The translations under genes were made by a program, and so were the position numbers. From IMG/VR virus record IMGVR_UViG_3300042691_014743, positions 1-35,715 of that record: a DNA stretch of 35,715 nt, one strand, 5' to 3'. Of the stretch, positions 964 through 9,581 are shown piece by piece. This stretch comes from a virus. Below the pieces are notes generated by a model, which did not search any database, was not told the DNA's origin, and was given only the letters and a program-made list of their open reading frames with translations. The stretch's first letter is position 1, and each line of letters opens with the position of its first letter.

Positions 964-1586
964 ATACACTTTTAAAACAAAATCTTAATCAGAAGTTTGT
1001 AGTATTTGATACTGAGACCGAAGGCTTGTCTCTTACCTCTTCTCGTCCTTGGCAGCTTTCTTGGATTGTTTGCCAAGGGGAAAAAATCCTTGAGTCGCAC
1101 GACGAATTTGTTTTGTACTCTGATCTGAATGTTTCAGATGAAGCGGCGAGAATAACTGGGTTTGACAAGTCCTCTTATCTTTCAAAGGCTAAACCACCAA
1201 TCGATGTGTGGCAGAAATTCGCGCCGTATCTTTATGACTCCAGCAACCTTCTTGTTGGCCAGAATATTTTGAATTATGACATTTATATTCTGAACACAAT
1301 GATGGGCACAATTGGAATCCAGAATAACTGGAGCTTTATGAATCGTTGCATTGACACGCGCGCGCTATCAACGGCAATGTTCAAGGGCATCCAGCCATCT
1401 GGCGACTTACTACCTTGGCAGATGAAGCTGATGAACTTTCATGAAAAGGGTTTAAAGACCAGCCAAGCTTTTATGCTGAAGCACTTTGCAATTGATCACG
1501 ACCCCAGTAAGCTACACAATGCGCTATACGATATCACAATGAATTATAAGATTTTCCGCAAGCTTATTATGGAGGTAAACGTATGA
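960..1586 (+). CDS. DEDDh 3'-5' exonuclease (DnaQ/epsilon-like proofreader)
   Basis: A 208-residue 3'-5' exonuclease that most likely proofreads for the polymerase encoded next. Exo I is FDTET (D17, E19), Exo II is in VGQNILNYD (D107), and Exo III has H186-x4-D191 (HNALYD), which is the DEDDh arrangement. I chose GTG 960 as start because GGAAGGAGG (947-955) sits four bases upstream and the GTG overlaps the preceding TGA. An ATG at 915 in the same frame would add 15 residues from inside the PHP gene and has no such site. It ends in an ATGA overlap with the polymerase core gene, so the three are probably translated together. In PolC the exonuclease is part of the same chain as the polymerase; here it is separate but sits in a similar order. 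Confidence 0.8.
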   Translation: MNTLLKQNLNQKFVVFDTETEGLSLTSSRPWQLSWIVCQGEKILESHDEFVLYSDLNVSDEAARITGFDKSSYLSKAKPPIDVWQKFAPYLYDSSNLLVGQNILNYDIYILNTMMGTIGIQNNWSFMNRCIDTRALSTAMFKGIQPSGDLLPWQMKLMNFHEKGLKTSQAFMLKHFAIDHDPSKLHNALYDITMNYKIFRKLIMEVNV

Positions 1587-4147
1587 TCGATTTTAACGCC
1601 TGCTTTCAAAAGTATGAGCATCCGGTTCCTCCGGGCGTACGACTTCCAGAGATCAAGATAGATGCCCGCCACTACGAGAGTCTCGGCATCTCACCTTCTG
1701 TTTCAAACTATGAGTTCCTCCGCCAACTCTGCCTCAAGGCAGTCAAGGAAAAAGGCATCGACAAACTTAACAATAAAAAAGAATATTATGAACGAGCAAA
1801 ATACGAGCTTTCAGTTTTTGAAGAACTGGGCTTCACTGACTATATCCTGCTTAATTGGGACATTCTTAATTACGCTCATGAGCATAGCATTCCTACTGGC
1901 TATGGGCGTGGCTCTGCTGCTGGTTCTCTTATTCTCTTTCTTATTGGGGTTACCAATGTAGACCCGATTAAGAACGGACTGTTCTTTGAGCGTTTCGTCT
2001 CAAAGAGCCGTGCAAAGAAGATTGTGGTGGACGGAGTCACTTATCTCGATGGCTCACTGATGCCTGACGTAGACAATGATATTGAGTTCTCTCGCCGTCA
2101 GGACGTAATCAATTACATCAAGACTAAGTATTCAGGCAAGACTTGTAAGATCTTGACTATGAATACTTTGACAGGAAAACTCTGCATTAAAGAGTGTGGC
2201 AAGATCGTCGGAGAGATGACAGAGGACGAGGTTAATGCGGTAAGTGACTCTATCCCAAAGCAGTTTGGAAAAGTGTTTGCCTTGAAGGACGCTTACGATG
2301 AAAGCGAAATCTTCAGAGCGTTCTGCGATAAGAATCCTAAAGTATTCAAGATCGCCAAGAAAATTGAGGGATTGAACAAGAATACTGGCGTTCACCCATC
2401 CGGCATCTCAATCTCTTATTATAATAACGAGGATATTATGCCGCTTCAGAAGACTGGAGATGGAGAGGTTGTTTCTGGATACGATATGAACAACGTATCA
2501 GAAATTACAGTTAAGTTCGATATCCTTGGGCTTCGAACACTCTCTGTCGTGTTTGATACTTGTCAGAGGCTTGGACTTGATTTTAAAACAGTTAATTTTG
2601 ACCAGCCTTCAACCTATGGATTTCTGCAAGACCTAAAGAATCCAAAGGGCTTGTTCCAAATTGAAGCCAACACAAACTTCCACGTTTGCAAAAAAGTCAA
2701 GCCGCGAAATATGCTTGAGCTTGCCTGCGTACTATCTCTTGCCCGACCCGGAGCATTGGACTTCCTAGACCAGTATGCTAGGTACGTCGAGACCGGAGAT
2801 TTTCAATCTGTTCACCCGTTCTTCGACGACATCCTTAGCATTACTGGCGGCATCCCAATCTTCCAAGAGCAGCTAATGAAGATGATTGTCAAGGTTGGAT
2901 TTACCCTTGATGAAGCCGAAACTGTCCGGCGCATCATTGGCAAGAAGAAAGTTAGTGAGATGCCAGCTTGGAAAGAGAAGATTGTAAACAAGGTAAGGGA
3001 AAATAATCTTGATTCGCAAATTGCAGATGTCCTTTGGAAGGTGGCCGAGGACAGTGCAAACTATTCGTTTAATCTTTCTCACGCAGCAAGTTATGCCACA
3101 CTTTCTGCCCTCACGACTTATTTAAAGTTTAATTATCCCAAGGAGTTCTTCTTGGCTCTACTCAAGTCTTCTAGACACGAACCAGATCCGCACGAAGAGA
3201 TCGAGACAATCTCTCAAGAACTTCCTTTCTTTGGAATCAGATTGCTTGCCCCAGATTTGGTTAAGTCTAAGCCGGATTTTGAAATCGAAGATAATAATAT
3301 TCGCTTTGGCTTAAATGCCATTAAGGGCGTTTCAGACAAGATTCTTTCCAAGCTACTTGAGTTTCGCCAAGGAGAGTTTTCAAATAAAATTGATTGTTTC
3401 GACGGAGCCAAAGAAGCTAGCTTGAATATCGGAGTTCTTTCTGCGCTGATTCAAGCCGGAACCCTATCCAGCTTTTCGGAAAAGCGTTGCAGACTTGTGC
3501 TTGAAGCCCAGACTTATAATGTTCTTACTGATCGCGAGAAGAGAAATGTAAAACTTCTGGCGCCAAAATATGGCTACGATGTCTTGACAACTATCTCTGA
3601 AGCGATGAAGAATAAACAAGTTGCAGATGATGGCAAAGCCCTGATGTCCGAAAAACGCTACAATACTTTCAAAGCTAAGTACGAACCATTCAAGCGTATT
3701 TACGAAATGAATAAGAAATACGAGAAGTTCGCTAATTGGTTTTTTGAGAAGCGGCTTCTTGGATACAGCTATACTTACAAGCTGAAGGAAGTGTTCCAAG
3801 ATACCGACTCTGACGCTTTGCTAACCAGCTATGAAGTTCTGCAATCAGAACCAAGACAAGCAGTGAAGATGGTTGGGATTGTTAAGGAAGCTCGCAAAAA
3901 GACTAGCAGAAATGGTAATAACTATTTGTTCATCAAACTGTCCGATGAGTATGGCCAGATCTCTTGCCGGTTAATGGATGGTCGCCAAGATAATATGACA
4001 AGGTATTATGAAGGCGAAGGTCGCACCCCAAAGGAAGATGAGATTGTAATTGTGTATGGAAATAAATCTGACGATTCTATATTTTTAAATACACTGTCAA
4101 TCTTGAACGAGAAAATTTATACAAAGCTTTCTGATTTAGAATCTTAA
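1583..4147 (+). CDS. family-C DNA polymerase core (DNA polymerase III alpha-like, no PHP domain)
   Basis: Replicative DNA polymerase core of 854 residues, shorter than E. coli DnaE (1160) because the PHP domain is encoded separately and the tail is short. In order: a short linker; palm with GRGSAAGSL (108-116); catalytic MPDVDND (D162, D164); HPSG (271-274); third catalytic Asp in KFDILGLRTL (D313); fingers with SLARPGALDF and FNLSHA (496-501); a region like 'LLAPDLVKS..IRFGLNAIKGV' with the helix-hairpin-helix part; and an OB fold near 765-835 (VKMVGIVKEARKK...). All three catalytic aspartates are present. I see no clear QLxLF-type clamp-binding motif. It starts in an ATGA overlap with the exonuclease gene and is followed nine bases later by the Clp-like gene. 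Confidence 0.9.
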   Translation: MIDFNACFQKYEHPVPPGVRLPEIKIDARHYESLGISPSVSNYEFLRQLCLKAVKEKGIDKLNNKKEYYERAKYELSVFEELGFTDYILLNWDILNYAHEHSIPTGYGRGSAAGSLILFLIGVTNVDPIKNGLFFERFVSKSRAKKIVVDGVTYLDGSLMPDVDNDIEFSRRQDVINYIKTKYSGKTCKILTMNTLTGKLCIKECGKIVGEMTEDEVNAVSDSIPKQFGKVFALKDAYDESEIFRAFCDKNPKVFKIAKKIEGLNKNTGVHPSGISISYYNNEDIMPLQKTGDGEVVSGYDMNNVSEITVKFDILGLRTLSVVFDTCQRLGLDFKTVNFDQPSTYGFLQDLKNPKGLFQIEANTNFHVCKKVKPRNMLELACVLSLARPGALDFLDQYARYVETGDFQSVHPFFDDILSITGGIPIFQEQLMKMIVKVGFTLDEAETVRRIIGKKKVSEMPAWKEKIVNKVRENNLDSQIADVLWKVAEDSANYSFNLSHAASYATLSALTTYLKFNYPKEFFLALLKSSRHEPDPHEEIETISQELPFFGIRLLAPDLVKSKPDFEIEDNNIRFGLNAIKGVSDKILSKLLEFRQGEFSNKIDCFDGAKEASLNIGVLSALIQAGTLSSFSEKRCRLVLEAQTYNVLTDREKRNVKLLAPKYGYDVLTTISEAMKNKQVADDGKALMSEKRYNTFKAKYEPFKRIYEMNKKYEKFANWFFEKRLLGYSYTYKLKEVFQDTDSDALLTSYEVLQSEPRQAVKMVGIVKEARKKTSRNGNNYLFIKLSDEYGQISCRLMDGRQDNMTRYYEGEGRTPKEDEIVIVYGNKSDDSIFLNTLSILNEKIYTKLSDLES

Positions 4148-4158: not shown

Positions 4159-6577
4159 GAATACAGTGCAAGAAATCAATTTCACGCCAAAGGCCAAAAG
4201 AGTCTTAGACGTTGCCAAACAAGCTTGCATAGAGAAAAAAATCGCTGAAATAAGCGATGGCTTCCTGTTTTATGCCCTGCTAAAATCGGACTCGATGATT
4301 GTGAACTCGGCTTTTAGCGGAATAAAGATTTCTCCACAAGAGCTTGCCGATGTTGTATGGAAAGCGCTTCCGTCAACTGTCAAAGGATCTTCAAAAGAAA
4401 ACGCGGAATTTGATCAGATTTCTAATAAGATTATCTCCGAATCTCTTACGTACTCAAAGCAGTACAGCCAAAACTATACCGGAGTAGAACATATCTTTAG
4501 ATCAGCGTTAACTCACTCTCCGTTTATTAAAAAATTCTTTAAAAAGAATGGTATTGATATTGGATACATTGCCGAAAAGATTGATTCTGGGTGTAAAAAT
4601 ATTTCTAACCCAAAGAAAAAGGTTTCTGCTCCAACTCAAGGATCTGAGCCTAATTTAAAATCTGCCTCAATCAAAAGCTATTGTATTAATTACAATGAGA
4701 AGGCAGCTAAGGGAGATTTTGACCTCATCTGCTTTAGAGAAAAAGAAGTCGAGCAGATGTCAGAAATCCTTTGCCGCAAACAAAAGAAGAATCCAATCAT
4801 TGTTGGAGAAGCTGGTGTAGGCAAGAGCGCTATCGTAGGGCTATTGGCAAAACATATTGTTGCTGGAGATTGTACCGAGTTTCTTCTTGGCAAGGTTATT
4901 TTGCAGCTTGATATGACCGCTCTTGTCGCTGGCACAAACCTTCGCGGCCAGTTTGAGGAGCGTCTCCATAAGATCCTAAATGAAGTTAAGGCGCAAAAGA
5001 ATATCATTCTGTTTATCGATGAGATTCATACAATTACTGGAATGGGTAATGACGAGGGGTCTCTTGATGCATCAAATATCTTAAAGCCTTATCTTGCTGG
5101 TGATGAGATCAGTTGTATTGGCGCAACAACCCAGAAAGAATACGAGAAATACTTCCAGAACGACTCGGCAATGAATCGCCGCTTTGAGCCTTTGTTCATC
5201 AAGGAACCCTCAAAGAAGGATACGTTAAAAATACTTAAAAACATAAAGAATCACTACGAGTTGTTTCACGCCGTACATTACCCAGATAAAATCTTGGAAG
5301 GCGTTGTTGATCTTTGCGAAAAGTATATTACTAATAGAAGATTCCCAGACAAGGCGATAGACTTGATGGATCACGTAGGCTCAAAGTCAAAGATTAAAAT
5401 CTACGCCAGACCAGAGCTATTTAAGGACTTGGAAAAAAAGCTTGCTGGTACAACAGAAGAGGACGAAATTTCTTTTATAGTAAAGGAATACGAGGACAGG
5501 TACAATCAATGGTTTTCGTCGCTCAAGGACTCTAAAAAAGAAGTAAGCAAGCAGGATCTTTATGCCGCTTTATCCGATAAGATTGGTGTATTCATAGATG
5601 CCAACGTCTCTGATTCAAAGTTCAAAAACATTTTTACAAATCTGCAAAAGCACGTATTTGGACAGGATGAAGCTTTGAGAAAAATTTCTAACTGCGTTGT
5701 TAGGTCTTCGTTTGGTCTTTCATCATCCAATAGACCTCTTGGCAGTTTTATGTTTTTGGGGCCGACAGGATCTGGGAAAACGTATCTTGCTAAGACTTTA
5801 GCAATGGAGGCTTTTGGCAGCGAGTCTAGTTTAGTTAGACTTGATATGTCAGAGTTTATGGAGCAGGCTTCGGTATCAAAGCTTATCGGTTCACCTCCTG
5901 GTTACATTGGATTTGGCGAATCCAATATTCTTTCTGAGCAGCTTCAGAAGTTCCCATCTAGTATCTTTTTGTTTGATGAGGTTGAGAAGGCTCATCCAGA
6001 TGTTATAAATGTATTACTGCAAATTATGGACAATGGCCAACTGACAACCTCAGTTGGGCGCAAGCTTGATTTTAAAAACTCCATCATCATTTTGACTGGC
6101 AATGTCGGCTTCCAATTTGCAGATAACAAAAGAATGGGATTCTTCCAAGCAGCCGCGAAAGCCTTGACTAAGGACGTTGTCAAAGAAAACTTGCAAAAGT
6201 TTTTCCGTCCAGAGTTCTTAGCTCGACTCAATGATATTGTTATATTTAACTCCTTGACAGATGACGCTTTACGAAAGATTGCTGACAAAGAAATTTCCAA
6301 GATCAAAGAGAGCCTTAAAGACAAACAAATAACATTTAACGTTTCAGAAGAAGTTTATGGATTTATTCTTAACGAGACAAAAAGCTCAAGCGATGGAGCG
6401 AGAAAAATTATCTTCTTTATAGAGAACGAATTAAAAACAAAGATCGTTGACGTTTTAGCTTCCGGCTCATATAATGATATTGTCGTATCATTAGATAACG
6501 GGACAATAAAAGTTGATGGAAAATCAAAAAAATTTCGTTCGACACGTAATACAGAGCACCGATATTCTCCCAATTGA
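4157..6577 (+). CDS. ClpA/ClpC-like double AAA+ protein unfoldase
   Basis: An 806-residue Hsp100 ATPase with the full ClpA/ClpC layout. The N-domain (about 1-145) resembles Clp_N (TPKAKRVLDVAKQ, GVEHIFRSAL). AAA-1 has Walker A GEAGVGKS (217-224), Walker B ILFIDE (284-289) and arginines 341-342. AAA-2 has Walker A GPTGSGKT (535-542) and Walker B IFLFDE (603-608), followed by the C-terminal D2 small domain. The linker between the AAA domains is short, as in ClpA, with no long coiled-coil as in ClpB. A tripeptide MGF (660-662) sits where ClpA has IGL and B. subtilis ClpC has VGF, the ClpP-docking loop, so it could feed substrates to a host or phage ClpP. No ClpP gene is in the window. It lies directly downstream of the polymerase, so a role in replication-protein turnover or remodelling is possible but only inferred. 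Confidence 0.9.
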   Translation: MNTVQEINFTPKAKRVLDVAKQACIEKKIAEISDGFLFYALLKSDSMIVNSAFSGIKISPQELADVVWKALPSTVKGSSKENAEFDQISNKIISESLTYSKQYSQNYTGVEHIFRSALTHSPFIKKFFKKNGIDIGYIAEKIDSGCKNISNPKKKVSAPTQGSEPNLKSASIKSYCINYNEKAAKGDFDLICFREKEVEQMSEILCRKQKKNPIIVGEAGVGKSAIVGLLAKHIVAGDCTEFLLGKVILQLDMTALVAGTNLRGQFEERLHKILNEVKAQKNIILFIDEIHTITGMGNDEGSLDASNILKPYLAGDEISCIGATTQKEYEKYFQNDSAMNRRFEPLFIKEPSKKDTLKILKNIKNHYELFHAVHYPDKILEGVVDLCEKYITNRRFPDKAIDLMDHVGSKSKIKIYARPELFKDLEKKLAGTTEEDEISFIVKEYEDRYNQWFSSLKDSKKEVSKQDLYAALSDKIGVFIDANVSDSKFKNIFTNLQKHVFGQDEALRKISNCVVRSSFGLSSSNRPLGSFMFLGPTGSGKTYLAKTLAMEAFGSESSLVRLDMSEFMEQASVSKLIGSPPGYIGFGESNILSEQLQKFPSSIFLFDEVEKAHPDVINVLLQIMDNGQLTTSVGRKLDFKNSIIILTGNVGFQFADNKRMGFFQAAAKALTKDVVKENLQKFFRPEFLARLNDIVIFNSLTDDALRKIADKEISKIKESLKDKQITFNVSEEVYGFILNETKSSSDGARKIIFFIENELKTKIVDVLASGSYNDIVVSLDNGTIKVDGKSKKFRSTRNTEHRYSPN

Positions 6578-6584
6578 GAATGAA

Positions 6585-7502
6585 ATGCTTGAAGAAATCA
6601 AGCGCTTGATAAAATCAGCCCTCGGTACAGATGTAGTAAAATTAGAAAAAAAATCTTCAGAAGTTTTATACGATTGCTATACTGCGATAAGTGGTAAAAA
6701 AGCTTTAACGATAAAGCTTAATTTATCTCCAGATCTTCCAAATTTTTGGAAAGAGCTAATAGAAAATAATTTTTCTTTTCACCCTCAAATTATTTGCTCT
6801 TCAAAAGAGAATGATATTCTTAAATTTATTTGTTTTGAAGGACCAAATGGAATTTTGCTTTCAGATGTTTCAAATTATCCACTAAGCTCTAAATTTAATT
6901 TTATTAATTCTTTTGCTAGAGATTTGAAAAAAATGCATCAGATTAAGATAAAAAATGAAGACGATACTTTAAAAATTTTTAATGGAATGTGTCCACTTGA
7001 GGCTACGATGATATATGACCCTTTTCCAGTTTCACAATTAATTTTATCGCTTAAAACTTTATTTAAAAATACTTATCAATCCAATCTTGAAGATTGTGGA
7101 GTTTGCCATTTTGACATATGCCCAGAAAATATTATTTTTTCAAATAAAGAATTTAAATTTTTAAATTTTGAATACGCAGCCAATGCTAATATTTATATTG
7201 ACTTATGGAACGCGCGAGAGGCGATGAATATTTCTGATGAAAGCTTTTCAGCTTTTGTAAATTCTTATGGCTTAAACAAAACAAAACTTCACTCGTACAG
7301 ACAGGCAGCTGATATTTTTACCTTTGTATATTTTAATTCAAAAATAATTGCAGAATATATGACATTTGGAGTCAGAAATCATATCAAATTGAGATACTGG
7401 ATAAATAAATCAGAAGCTTATTACTATAAAATGGCTCATAAACTTTTTGTAGAAAAAAAACTTGACAATAAGATCCGCGAGTTCTATAATCTCTGGAAAT
7501 AG
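6585..7502 (+). CDS. choline kinase/aminoglycoside phosphotransferase-fold protein
   Basis: A 305-residue protein with the small-molecule kinase (APH/choline kinase) catalytic signature CHFDICPEN (H175, D177, N182), followed about a dozen residues later by FLNFEYA, where the family normally has (I/F)D(W/Y/F)E. The metal-binding Asp there is Asn (N194), so activity may be altered or lost. The region between (SKFNFINSFARDLKKMHQI) matches the helical part before the catalytic loop in this fold. I chose ATG 6585, eight bases after the Clp stop; ATG 6516 is in frame and would overlap the Clp gene by 62 bases. The gene is clearly more AT-rich than its upstream neighbours. The substrate cannot be told; phosphorylation of a choline- or sugar-type compound for surface modification is possible. 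A promoter for the next gene lies inside its 3' end. Confidence 0.6.
   Translation: MLEEIKRLIKSALGTDVVKLEKKSSEVLYDCYTAISGKKALTIKLNLSPDLPNFWKELIENNFSFHPQIICSSKENDILKFICFEGPNGILLSDVSNYPLSSKFNFINSFARDLKKMHQIKIKNEDDTLKIFNGMCPLEATMIYDPFPVSQLILSLKTLFKNTYQSNLEDCGVCHFDICPENIIFSNKEFKFLNFEYAANANIYIDLWNAREAMNISDESFSAFVNSYGLNKTKLHSYRQAADIFTFVYFNSKIIAEYMTFGVRNHIKLRYWINKSEAYYYKMAHKLFVEKKLDNKIREFYNLWK
7462..7490 (+). promoter_or_regulatory. consensus sigma70 promoter for the 72-residue gene
   Basis: TTGACA (7462-7467), a spacer of exactly 17 bases and TATAAT (7485-7490). Both boxes are perfect consensus. The expected start of transcription is near 7497, giving a leader of about 13 bases before ATG 7510. 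It lies within the last codons of the kinase-like gene. Confidence 0.85.
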
Positions 7503-7509
7503 AAAAACT

Positions 7510-7728
7510 ATGAATACTAAGAATAATCGCGCACTCACTACTATCCTAAATACCGCAGGTCGCTTTTTCGGCCTTGAGACCGCTACCGAGACTATTAATG
7601 CTCGTCTGGTAGAGTTTGGCCCATCTCTTATTACTGTAGAGGACCGTAACTCTGGCCGTAATCGTCGCTTCGCAAAGAGCAAGGTCACTGCCGTGACATT
7701 TCAAGGTCGAAGAATCACCGCTCGCTGA
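7510..7728 (+). CDS. small basic protein of unknown function, strongly expressed by layout
   Basis: A 72-residue protein rich in Arg and Thr. After a helical start (RALTTILNTAGRFFGLE) come short alternating strands (INARLVEF, SLITVEDR, KVTAVTF, RRITAR), which could make a small SH3- or Sm-like barrel; this is only a guess from pattern. I do not recognise the family. The start at 7510 is preferred because an in-frame ATG further upstream (7462) overlaps the promoter and would begin inside the kinase-like gene. It has a consensus promoter immediately before it and a strong terminator immediately after, so it forms its own transcription unit. Codons are more GC-rich and regular than in the kinase-like gene. 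A nucleic-acid-binding or host-takeover role would fit a small, basic, strongly transcribed phage protein, but there is no direct evidence. Confidence 0.75.
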   Translation: MNTKNNRALTTILNTAGRFFGLETATETINARLVEFGPSLITVEDRNSGRNRRFAKSKVTAVTFQGRRITAR

Positions 7729-7753
7729 CAAAAACTTAAGCCCTAAAACCACT

Positions 7754-7782
7754 GAGCCGAATGCAGATTCGGCTCTTTTTTT
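7754..7782 (+). terminator. rho-independent terminator
   Basis: Perfect nine-base-pair stem GAGCCGAAT (7754-7762) / ATTCGGCTC (7767-7775) with a GCAG loop and seven T residues (7776-7782). It closes the 72-residue gene's transcription unit and separates it from the virion-type genes. Confidence 0.95.
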
Positions 7783-7791
7783 AGTGTAAAT
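7783..7791 (+). promoter_or_regulatory. AGTGTAAAT motif, copy 2
   Basis: AGTGTAAAT directly abuts the T-tract of the terminator and lies eight bases before ATG 7800. Because it follows a strong terminator and leads a set of virion-type genes, a late-promoter role is attractive; its TAAATA part recalls the TATAAATA late promoter of T4-type phages. No TTGACA-like box is at the right distance. Confidence 0.4.
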
Positions 7792-7799
7792 AATAGGGT

Positions 7800-7942: not shown

Positions 7943-8305
7943 ATGGCAACATTCTCAAAAGTACTCTTATCGGGCTCAACCCAAGGCAAAGCCATTAAAG
8001 TTGCAGCCACAACATCAACTGGAACCACAATCCACGCGACTGGAACATCGTCTTCAGTTATTGATGAGGTATGGTTGTATGCATATAATTCATCAGCTAG
8101 CGCAGTTACCCTTACTATTCAGTATGGTGGAACCACTGCGGTTGATAATGATATAAAAATATCAATTCCAGCAACTTCTGGATTGACCTTAATTGTTCCC
8201 GGATTAGTATTAACTGGCACAGGTTCAGCGGCGAATACAATTTACGCTTATGCTGGGACAACAAACGTTATTACGATTTCTGGCTACGTTAATAGAATTT
8301 CATAA
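7943..8305 (+). CDS. small beta-rich virion-type protein
   Basis: A 120-residue protein made almost entirely of Thr, Ser, Gly, Ala and short hydrophobic strands (AIKVAATTSTGTTIHATG, EVWLYAYNSSASAVTLTIQYGG, SGLTLIVPGLVL, NTIYAYAGTTNVITISGY). The pattern is that of a beta-sandwich. Similar small proteins are common beside tail-fibre and decoration genes of marine phages, so a virion surface role is likely. It shares its stop with the next start (TAATG). I cannot give a precise name. Confidence 0.65.
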   Translation: MATFSKVLLSGSTQGKAIKVAATTSTGTTIHATGTSSSVIDEVWLYAYNSSASAVTLTIQYGGTTAVDNDIKISIPATSGLTLIVPGLVLTGTGSAANTIYAYAGTTNVITISGYVNRIS

Positions 8306-9237
8306 TGGCTAATCCGCTAAAGAGAATGGTGTCGTCTAGTCAGGTAGCTGATTGGTTTCCAGCTAATCGTTATATTAATGTTCCTTCCAGAAGTCAGAAT
8401 ATAAATGTTGAGTATTTAGTAGTTGCGGGCGGCGGCGGTGGTGGAACAACTCGCGGTGGCGGCGGCGGCGCTGGCGCAATGCGAACTGGATCAGTGGAAT
8501 TATCCATAGGAGTTGCGTACACTTTAACTGTTGGTGCCGGTGGAAGCGGTGCGCCTGGTCAAAATGGCGATACAGCAGTTAACGGTACGACAGGCAGTGA
8601 TTCAGTCTTTAGCATAACTTCCTTGGGGGGTGGAGGCGGCGCAAGACCAAATACTGCCGGATTAAACGGTGGCTCCGGTGGTGGCGCTGGCGGTGGAGAC
8701 ACTGGCACTGCTGCTGGCGGAACTGGTTCAAACGGTGGAAATAACGGCGGCGCAATGTACTCCTCTGGTCAAGCTGGAAGAGGAGGCGGTGGTGGTGGCG
8801 CTGGAGCCGTTGGCGGTAACGCAGGCATTAGCATTGCTGGTTCTGGCGGAAATGGCTCCGCTTCCTCTATAAGCGGTTCGTCCGTAACTTATGCAGGCGG
8901 TGGCGGTGGTGGTTTTGATGCCCGAAGCATTCCCGGAACTCTCGGCAGCGGCGGCACTGGCGGTGGAGGTGCTGGTGGAACTGGTGCAACCGCTTTAACT
9001 ATAAATGGCTCAAATGGTTCAGCTAACACTGGCGGCGGCGGTGGTGGCGGTAATCTTACAACTAGCATTGGTATTGTTAGCGGCTCAGGTGGAAACGGCG
9101 GTTCTGGAATAGTTATTTTAAGATTTCCAAGTGGACTAACACCAACAATTTCAGGTGGCCTAACTCAGACAACTACAACTGTCGGTGCAGATAAAGTTTG
9201 CACATTTACGGCAGGAACCGGAACAGTTACATTCTAA
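8305..9237 (+). CDS. glycine-rich adhesin-type protein
   Basis: A 310-residue protein. After about 35 ordinary residues comes VEYLVVAGGGGGG, the hallmark start of the phage glycine-rich domain. Around 200 residues of Gly runs follow, separated by short Ser/Thr/Asn segments, closing with SGIVILRFP, and then a short beta-rich C-terminus (KVCTFTAGTGTVTF). Glycine-rich stretches of this kind form polyglycine II helix bundles in the gp38 adhesins of T-even-like phages such as S16, where the intervening loops bind the receptor. Whether this protein has that fold is inference. The Gly-coding stretches are locally GC-rich. It follows the preceding gene with a TAATG overlap and is two bases upstream of the next ATG. 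Confidence 0.75.
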   Translation: MANPLKRMVSSSQVADWFPANRYINVPSRSQNINVEYLVVAGGGGGGTTRGGGGGAGAMRTGSVELSIGVAYTLTVGAGGSGAPGQNGDTAVNGTTGSDSVFSITSLGGGGGARPNTAGLNGGSGGGAGGGDTGTAAGGTGSNGGNNGGAMYSSGQAGRGGGGGGAGAVGGNAGISIAGSGGNGSASSISGSSVTYAGGGGGGFDARSIPGTLGSGGTGGGGAGGTGATALTINGSNGSANTGGGGGGGNLTTSIGIVSGSGGNGGSGIVILRFPSGLTPTISGGLTQTTTTVGADKVCTFTAGTGTVTF

Positions 9238-9239
9238 CA

Positions 9240-9581
9240 ATGGCACATTACGCATTTTTAAATGGCAATAATATAGTTACCGAGGTAATTGTCGGTATTG
9301 ATGAAAATCAACTTATTGACGGCCTATCTCCCGAAGAGTGGTATGGCAACTTCCGTAATCAGAAATGTGTTCGCACATCCTATAATAATAATATCCGCGT
9401 GCGCTATGCTGGAATTGGTTACCGCTATGACGCCGTGCGCGACGCTTTTATTGCCCCCCAACCTTACATATCTTGGACTTTTAACGAAACAACTTTAGAC
9501 TGGCAACCTCCAATTCCATACCCAAATGACGGTAAAGTTTATCAGTGGAATGAAGCCAATCTTCGGTGGATAGAAGCGTAA
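9240..9581 (+). CDS. conserved marine-phage structural-type protein
   Basis: A 113-residue protein of a type I recognise from cyanophages and other marine phages: start MAHYAFLNGNNIVTEVIVG, middle 'TSYNNNIRVRYAGIGYRYD..RDAFI', then 'PQPYISWTFNETTLDWQPPIPYP', end 'YQWNEANLRWIEA'. In those phages it is encoded near fibre genes and is usually annotated as hypothetical. The repeated W-x(4-6)-P/W pattern at the end suggests a small folded binding module. I chose ATG 9240 (two bases after the preceding stop) over an in-frame upstream ATG at 9198 that lies inside the Gly-rich gene. No function is known to me. Confidence 0.75.
   Translation: MAHYAFLNGNNIVTEVIVGIDENQLIDGLSPEEWYGNFRNQKCVRTSYNNNIRVRYAGIGYRYDAVRDAFIAPQPYISWTFNETTLDWQPPIPYPNDGKVYQWNEANLRWIEA

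Follow-up and report, generated by a model that had tools for sequence, protein, structure and literature searches.

A conserved promoter–terminator unit for a small basic protein with a predicted Sm-like/WYL-type fold in uncultured phages

Genomic context and organization of the unit

The window is the whole 35,715-base stretch of viral DNA analyzed here. Its genes include lambda-type tail genes, a DnaE-type polymerase, a Clp-type ATPase, and the large and small subunits of ribonucleotide reductase; matches of the polymerase, Clp, and NrdB proteins in named phages all fall below 60% identity and do not point to a host. The DnaE-type polymerase seems to be split, with 229-963 and 1583-4147 matching different parts of phrog_405 and a polymerase exonuclease-subunit ORF (915-1586) lying between them. 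Scans of the window against Rfam and for tRNAs returned nothing. Downstream of a kinase-like ORF lies a compact transcription unit that runs in the same direction as its neighbors and comprises the following parts:

7462..7467, + strand: -35 hexamer TTGACA, lying in the 3'-terminal part of the preceding ORF; 72 of 74 family members carry it exactly
7485..7490, + strand: -10 hexamer TATAAT, after a spacer of 17 bases; spacer of 17 in 71 of 74 members
7497..7509, + strand: predicted leader of 13 bases, without a Shine-Dalgarno-like sequence; start site placed from the -10 position
7510..7728, + strand: gene for a 72-amino-acid basic protein (ATG 7510, stop 7726-7728), predicted to form an Sm-like/WYL-type barrel
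7754..7782, + strand: intrinsic terminator, with a nine-pair stem (7754-7775), a 4-base loop, and seven T (7776-7782)

A sequence-only reading of this DNA had described a perfect promoter, a 13-base leader, a single small basic protein of 72 residues, and a nine-pair terminator followed by seven T, and each of these parts is borne out. The sigma70-type promoter at 7462-7490 matches the consensus TTGACA-N17-TATAAT at 12 of 12 positions and is its only exact copy on either strand of the 35,715 bases, where 0.01 are expected (100 shuffles). It falls within the 3' end of the kinase-like ORF, whose stop codon occupies 7500-7502. Transcription conventionally starts seven bases past the -10 box, which would be position 7497, so the leader length follows from this spacing convention. 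The terminator has a predicted energy of -15.1 kcal/mol (z -4.1).

Two further features flank the unit. Ahead of the kinase-like ORF, whose ATG is at 6585, a near-consensus TTGACG-N17-TATAAT (11/12) occupies 6447-6475 within the Clp gene's 3' end. In five relative records, TTGACA..TATAAT is found in a comparable position, roughly 1 kb upstream of the unit. Downstream, 8305-9237 encodes a glycine-rich protein (Pfam Gly_rich_2, E 4.7e-22) that is probably related to tail fibres.

A family of small, single-copy phage proteins

Three pattern scans of viral contigs yielded 14, 38, and 46 confirmed loci, and two further scans added none. After removal of duplicate contigs, the family comprises 75 further members on public viral contigs, or 76 with the window, representing 56 distinct proteins including the window's own. 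All 76 are 69-80 amino acids long. The possibility that the gene is only a fragment of a larger protein, which would have refuted the sequence-only reading, is excluded because every member falls within this length range. A profile search found one copy per record in 17 of 17 family records; a second match in one of them (G011; E 0.02, within a 2955-codon frame) was left out of this count.

Outside uncultured viral contigs, the family was not encountered in the collections searched. With three members as tblastn queries, 50,697 isolated-phage records gave no match, and none of the 32 stretches of genome contigs that fit the pattern was confirmed as family. An alignment of the Clp ATPase led to 80 further loci, with the gene inside the fetched flank in six (two on contigs already known). 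The search thereby contributed the loci L173, L218, L151, and L152, which stand outside the 76-member counts. Since the gene is absent from the flank of most of these loci, it does not always accompany that ATPase.

No convincing match was found in Pfam, PHROGs, NCBIfam, or the sequences of the PDB, and those returned were judged to be chance. The Pfam family DUF5128 matched 7 of 27 members (best E 0.004) and was set aside because it is a beta-propeller family, and phrog_23292 matched 8 of 56 (best E 0.0034) and gave no match when followed in 12 records. The earlier statement that the family is not recognised thus holds for Pfam, PHROGs, and NCBIfam. No paper on the family was found in literature searches, which covered few subscription journals.

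The protein itself is under purifying selection. Of 14 listed pairs of family genes, 13 yielded rates (the remaining pair is unequal in length), with dN of 0.02-0.11 against dS of 0.36-1.99. Synonymous change far exceeds amino-acid change in all 13, so the protein is what selection keeps, and a non-coding unit is ruled out. Nine columns are invariant across the 56 sequences (G17, R18, F20, G21, N30, A31, D45, N47, and K56), and basic residues are conserved at R18, R46, R52, and K56. Net charge ranges from +5 to +13, with a median of +10. Codon bias is modest, with a C-ending fraction of 0.43 versus 0.34 and values above those of the neighbors in 41 of 56 loci.

Conservation of the promoter and terminator

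Promoter counts cover 74 of the 76 members, two having no upstream sequence, and terminator counts cover 75, one having no downstream sequence. The two exceptions to an exact -35 box are L018, which reads TAGACA, and L138, which has no such box. Among the loci added through the Clp search, L173 and L218 keep TTGACA, and L151 and L152, read by eye, have TTGACT and no clear -10 box. Over 54 distinct regions with a spacer of 17, the -35 box averages 1.98 bits, compared with 0.60 for the spacer. Because the 74-member scan accepted only -10 boxes with A in second and T in final position, these two columns are fixed by construction; in an earlier scan without that constraint, TAnnnT was present in 39 of 39. 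Promoters scoring at least 10/12 precede 72 of 74 members but only 43 of 227 control ORFs, a set that includes kinase-like genes with promoters of their own. A terminator-like site follows 62 of 75 members, versus 28 of 227 control ORFs, leaving 13 of 75 without one by the criterion used.

The -35 box falls within the open frame of the upstream gene in 72 of 74 members, and the identity of that gene varies. In a gene-order survey of 25 loci, with at least one per close group, 12 show Clp ATPase, kinase-like gene, unit and another 12 show Clp ATPase, unit, kinase-like gene; in the remaining locus (L049), no kinase-like gene was seen and the promoter lies outside the upstream gene frame. The upstream gene therefore differs between two lineages, and the unit keeps its promoter whichever gene precedes it. 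The promoter is under selection as DNA. The arrangement of the unit is not a product of chance, because it is conserved in relatives; a chance promoter is ruled out by the 0.01 expected copies together with conservation in the 54 distinct regions.

Conservation around the promoter also extends beyond its boxes. The pattern AA-N4-TTGACAA-N4-AT (7456-7475 in the window, and in relatives) is shared by both lineages and, in our own reading, falls in one and the same frame in two upstream genes that are unrelated, as though the unit moved and brought with it the final codons of any gene it comes to follow. On the other side of the unit, GTGTAAATA occurs at 7784-7792, immediately behind the terminator and shortly ahead of the following gene. 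It recurs at a similar place in 20 of 38 relatives from one scan, with 0.3 expected per window, and is possibly a phage-specific promoter element for the downstream genes.

The tail-type genes downstream of the unit (7943-9581) bear on one alternative, in which the protein is a minor virion or packaging component, or uses its barrel only for protein contacts. Small barrels serve many roles, which fits such an assignment. However, the host-type promoter and the terminator set the unit apart from the structural genes, and the next genes differ in relatives; we give this alternative only a slim chance.

Leader and translation start

In 45 members, the -10 box ends 6-9 bases before the ATG, at exactly 6 in 12 of these. 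With the usual textbook spacing between -10 box and start site, transcription in this lineage would begin on the ATG or within three bases of it, and the mRNA is probably leaderless. The window belongs to the other lineage, in which the leader is longer, at about 13 bases. Shine-Dalgarno-like sequences precede 2 of 57 family genes versus 16 of 212 neighbors. Since they are rare all round, their absence before family genes says little, and a missing Shine-Dalgarno sequence is ruled out as a special trait of the family. The predicted leaderless message of the first lineage offers a clean test case.

Predicted fold and nearest structures

The structure prediction and fold search proposed in the sequence-only reading were carried out and point to an Sm-like barrel with WYL domains and Hfq as its nearest relatives in structure. 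AlphaFold models reached a pLDDT of 88.9 with 27 sequences and 91.4 with 56, and the fold, predicted with confidence, consists of one helix and a five-strand Sm-like barrel with a short last strand:

Residues 7-13: helix (predicted model)
Residues 19-24, 28-36, 40-45, 50-55, 59-64, and 67-70: strands (predicted model)

In a comparison with the PDB, a designed barrel tops the list (Z 8.9), and the nearest natural entries are WYL domains and Hfq: the WYL domains of PafBC (Z 8.6, 2.3 Å over 66 residues), CapW (Z 8.3, 2.0 Å over 65), and BrxR (Z 8.2, 2.0 Å over 65), and Hfq (Z 7.6, 2.2 Å over 58). Many entries lie within Z 1 of each other and are effectively tied, with Hfq about 1 from the WYL domains. 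Foldseek gave no E-value below 0.001; among the BFVD viral models, the best matches include phage proteins named WYL domain. The predicted model thus qualifies as a WYL-type Sm-like barrel, with Hfq entries within about Z 1. Small barrels are very widespread among protein folds, and Z values below 9 prove no shared function.

Two alternatives arise from this comparison. In the first, the protein would be a phage version of Hfq, forming rings and acting as an RNA chaperone in the pairing or stabilisation of RNAs. Hfq chains make up many of the PDB matches, and Hfq has a similar length and the same helix-plus-five-strand order. Against this, the family profile scores 10.6 with the single E. coli Hfq sequence, about what shuffled controls reach against a different target, and the Sm2 motif of Hfq (KHA, read from the Hfq sequence) is absent from the members listed. 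We regard a phage Hfq as unlikely, if the strongest of the alternatives.

YaeO also appears in the same list, at Z 7.8, as does Rho-bound Rof at Z 7.2, both within 1 of the Hfq entries. A Rof/YaeO-like protein might bind and inhibit Rho and so spare phage transcripts from termination. Rof is acidic, and the net charge of +5 to +13 across the family counts against this reading; the shared fold is also common to many proteins. We regard a Rho inhibitor as very unlikely.

Proposed function and significance

The interpretation we favor, with moderate confidence, is a self-contained unit for the early, abundant production of a stand-alone Sm/WYL-type protein with single-stranded nucleic acid as its ligand. 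Host RNA polymerase would read the unit at once from its consensus promoter, the terminator would insulate it from its neighbors, and, with a short leader or none, ribosomes could begin translation at the 5' end or close to it. The resulting protein of 69-80 amino acids, with a charge of about +10, may then bind phage or host RNA, or ssDNA, through R18, R46, R52, and K56. Of these four conserved basic positions, K56 falls in the strand 4/5 loop of the predicted model. This loop of WYL domains is described as corresponding to the RNA-contact loop of Hfq (PMC6789036), and its two arginines are reported to be needed for ssDNA binding in PafBC, with DriD also binding ssDNA (PMC11804915). Together, the predicted fold, the basic charge, and these published roles make single-strand binding the best reading. 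The earlier suggestions are thus borne out in part: nucleic-acid binding is supported by the predicted Sm-like/WYL fold and the basic charge, and a role as an early takeover protein is a conjecture. The host-type promoter suggests early expression that would need no phage factors, and we infer early and abundant expression from it and from the modest codon bias; the ligand and any ring formation are likewise putative.

The resemblance to WYL regulators also raises the possibility of an anti-defence decoy, in which a free WYL-like domain would sequester ssDNA or attach to the WYL regulators of the host, thereby blinding damage and immune sensing. The WYL domains of CapW, BrxR, PafBC, and DriD are among the nearest solved folds; PafBC and DriD are described as binding ssDNA at this domain (PMC11804915), CapW and BrxR as controlling anti-phage systems, and a strong host-type promoter would suit the role. 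On the other hand, no defence or anti-defence gene was recognised among the neighbors scanned. We consider a decoy quite unlikely. In its most specific form, a free domain made in quantity at the start of infection would act as an ssDNA sponge or dominant-negative partner, which is a long shot. If true, the infection would go unnoticed by the host WYL sensors that activate CBASS, BREX, or the damage response, and the family would represent a class of anti-defence protein not recognised before, directed against the sensor rather than the effector.

The family adds an unrecognised group of stand-alone proteins with a predicted Sm/WYL-type fold to uncultured phages, and the constancy of its regulatory unit marks the gene as important in them. 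WYL domains are reported to sense ssDNA in the damage response, a recent finding, and WYL regulators to control anti-phage immunity. A phage that makes a bare WYL-type domain early would therefore provide a testable link to host sensing.

Comparison with known systems

Hfq resembles the family in size, in predicted fold, and in carrying a basic residue in the strand 4/5 loop. Gp39 of mycobacteriophage Adephagia is likewise a small phage protein likened to Hfq by its predicted fold, the assignment resting on AlphaFold, DALI, and Foldseek; the available text of its description mentions no comparable promoter unit.

The WYL domains of PafBC, CapW, BrxR, and DriD have the Sm fold with helix and five strands that is predicted here, and would also share a basic strand 4/5 loop. 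Unlike the regulators that contain them, the protein here has 72 amino acids and no DNA-binding HTH, WCX domain, or W-Y-L triplet; the N-terminal wHTH and C-terminal WCX are absent from all 76 members, which consist of the barrel only.

A further comparison is with WYL_2/DUF2693 (PF10902), which includes T4 gp31.1 and also consists of small stand-alone phage proteins, with a weak profile similarity over strands 3-5. DUF2693 has been placed in the WYL superfamily, with conserved basic residues predicted to line a groove (Makarova 2014, PMC4012209). The Pfam model (cut-off 26.7 bits) matched none of 12 family records at E<=1 and detected positive controls from KVP40 (77.2 bits) and phiM12 (41.1 bits); WYL_2 was also absent among the Pfam families for all 27 members tried. 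With hhalign, a profile of only ten gp31.1-type sequences gave a probability of 22%, E 0.00097, and a score of 24.0. This exceeds all 150 column shuffles (mean 10.4, sd 2.0, max 19.0), which also destroy strand periodicity; the reversed profile, which keeps it, scores 12.8. The invariant D and R of WYL_2 have the same spacing as D45 and R52, and D-x6-R-x-F/I/L occurs in 52 of 56 family sequences and in 10 of 10 of the gp31.1-type set. We read these similarities as a weak link of distant kinship, rather than membership. The family described here is shorter and more basic than WYL_2, has its own G-R-F-F-G and N-A signatures, and carries its own promoter and terminator, whereas the gp31.1-type gene lies beside gp31 in most of the T4-like records viewed.
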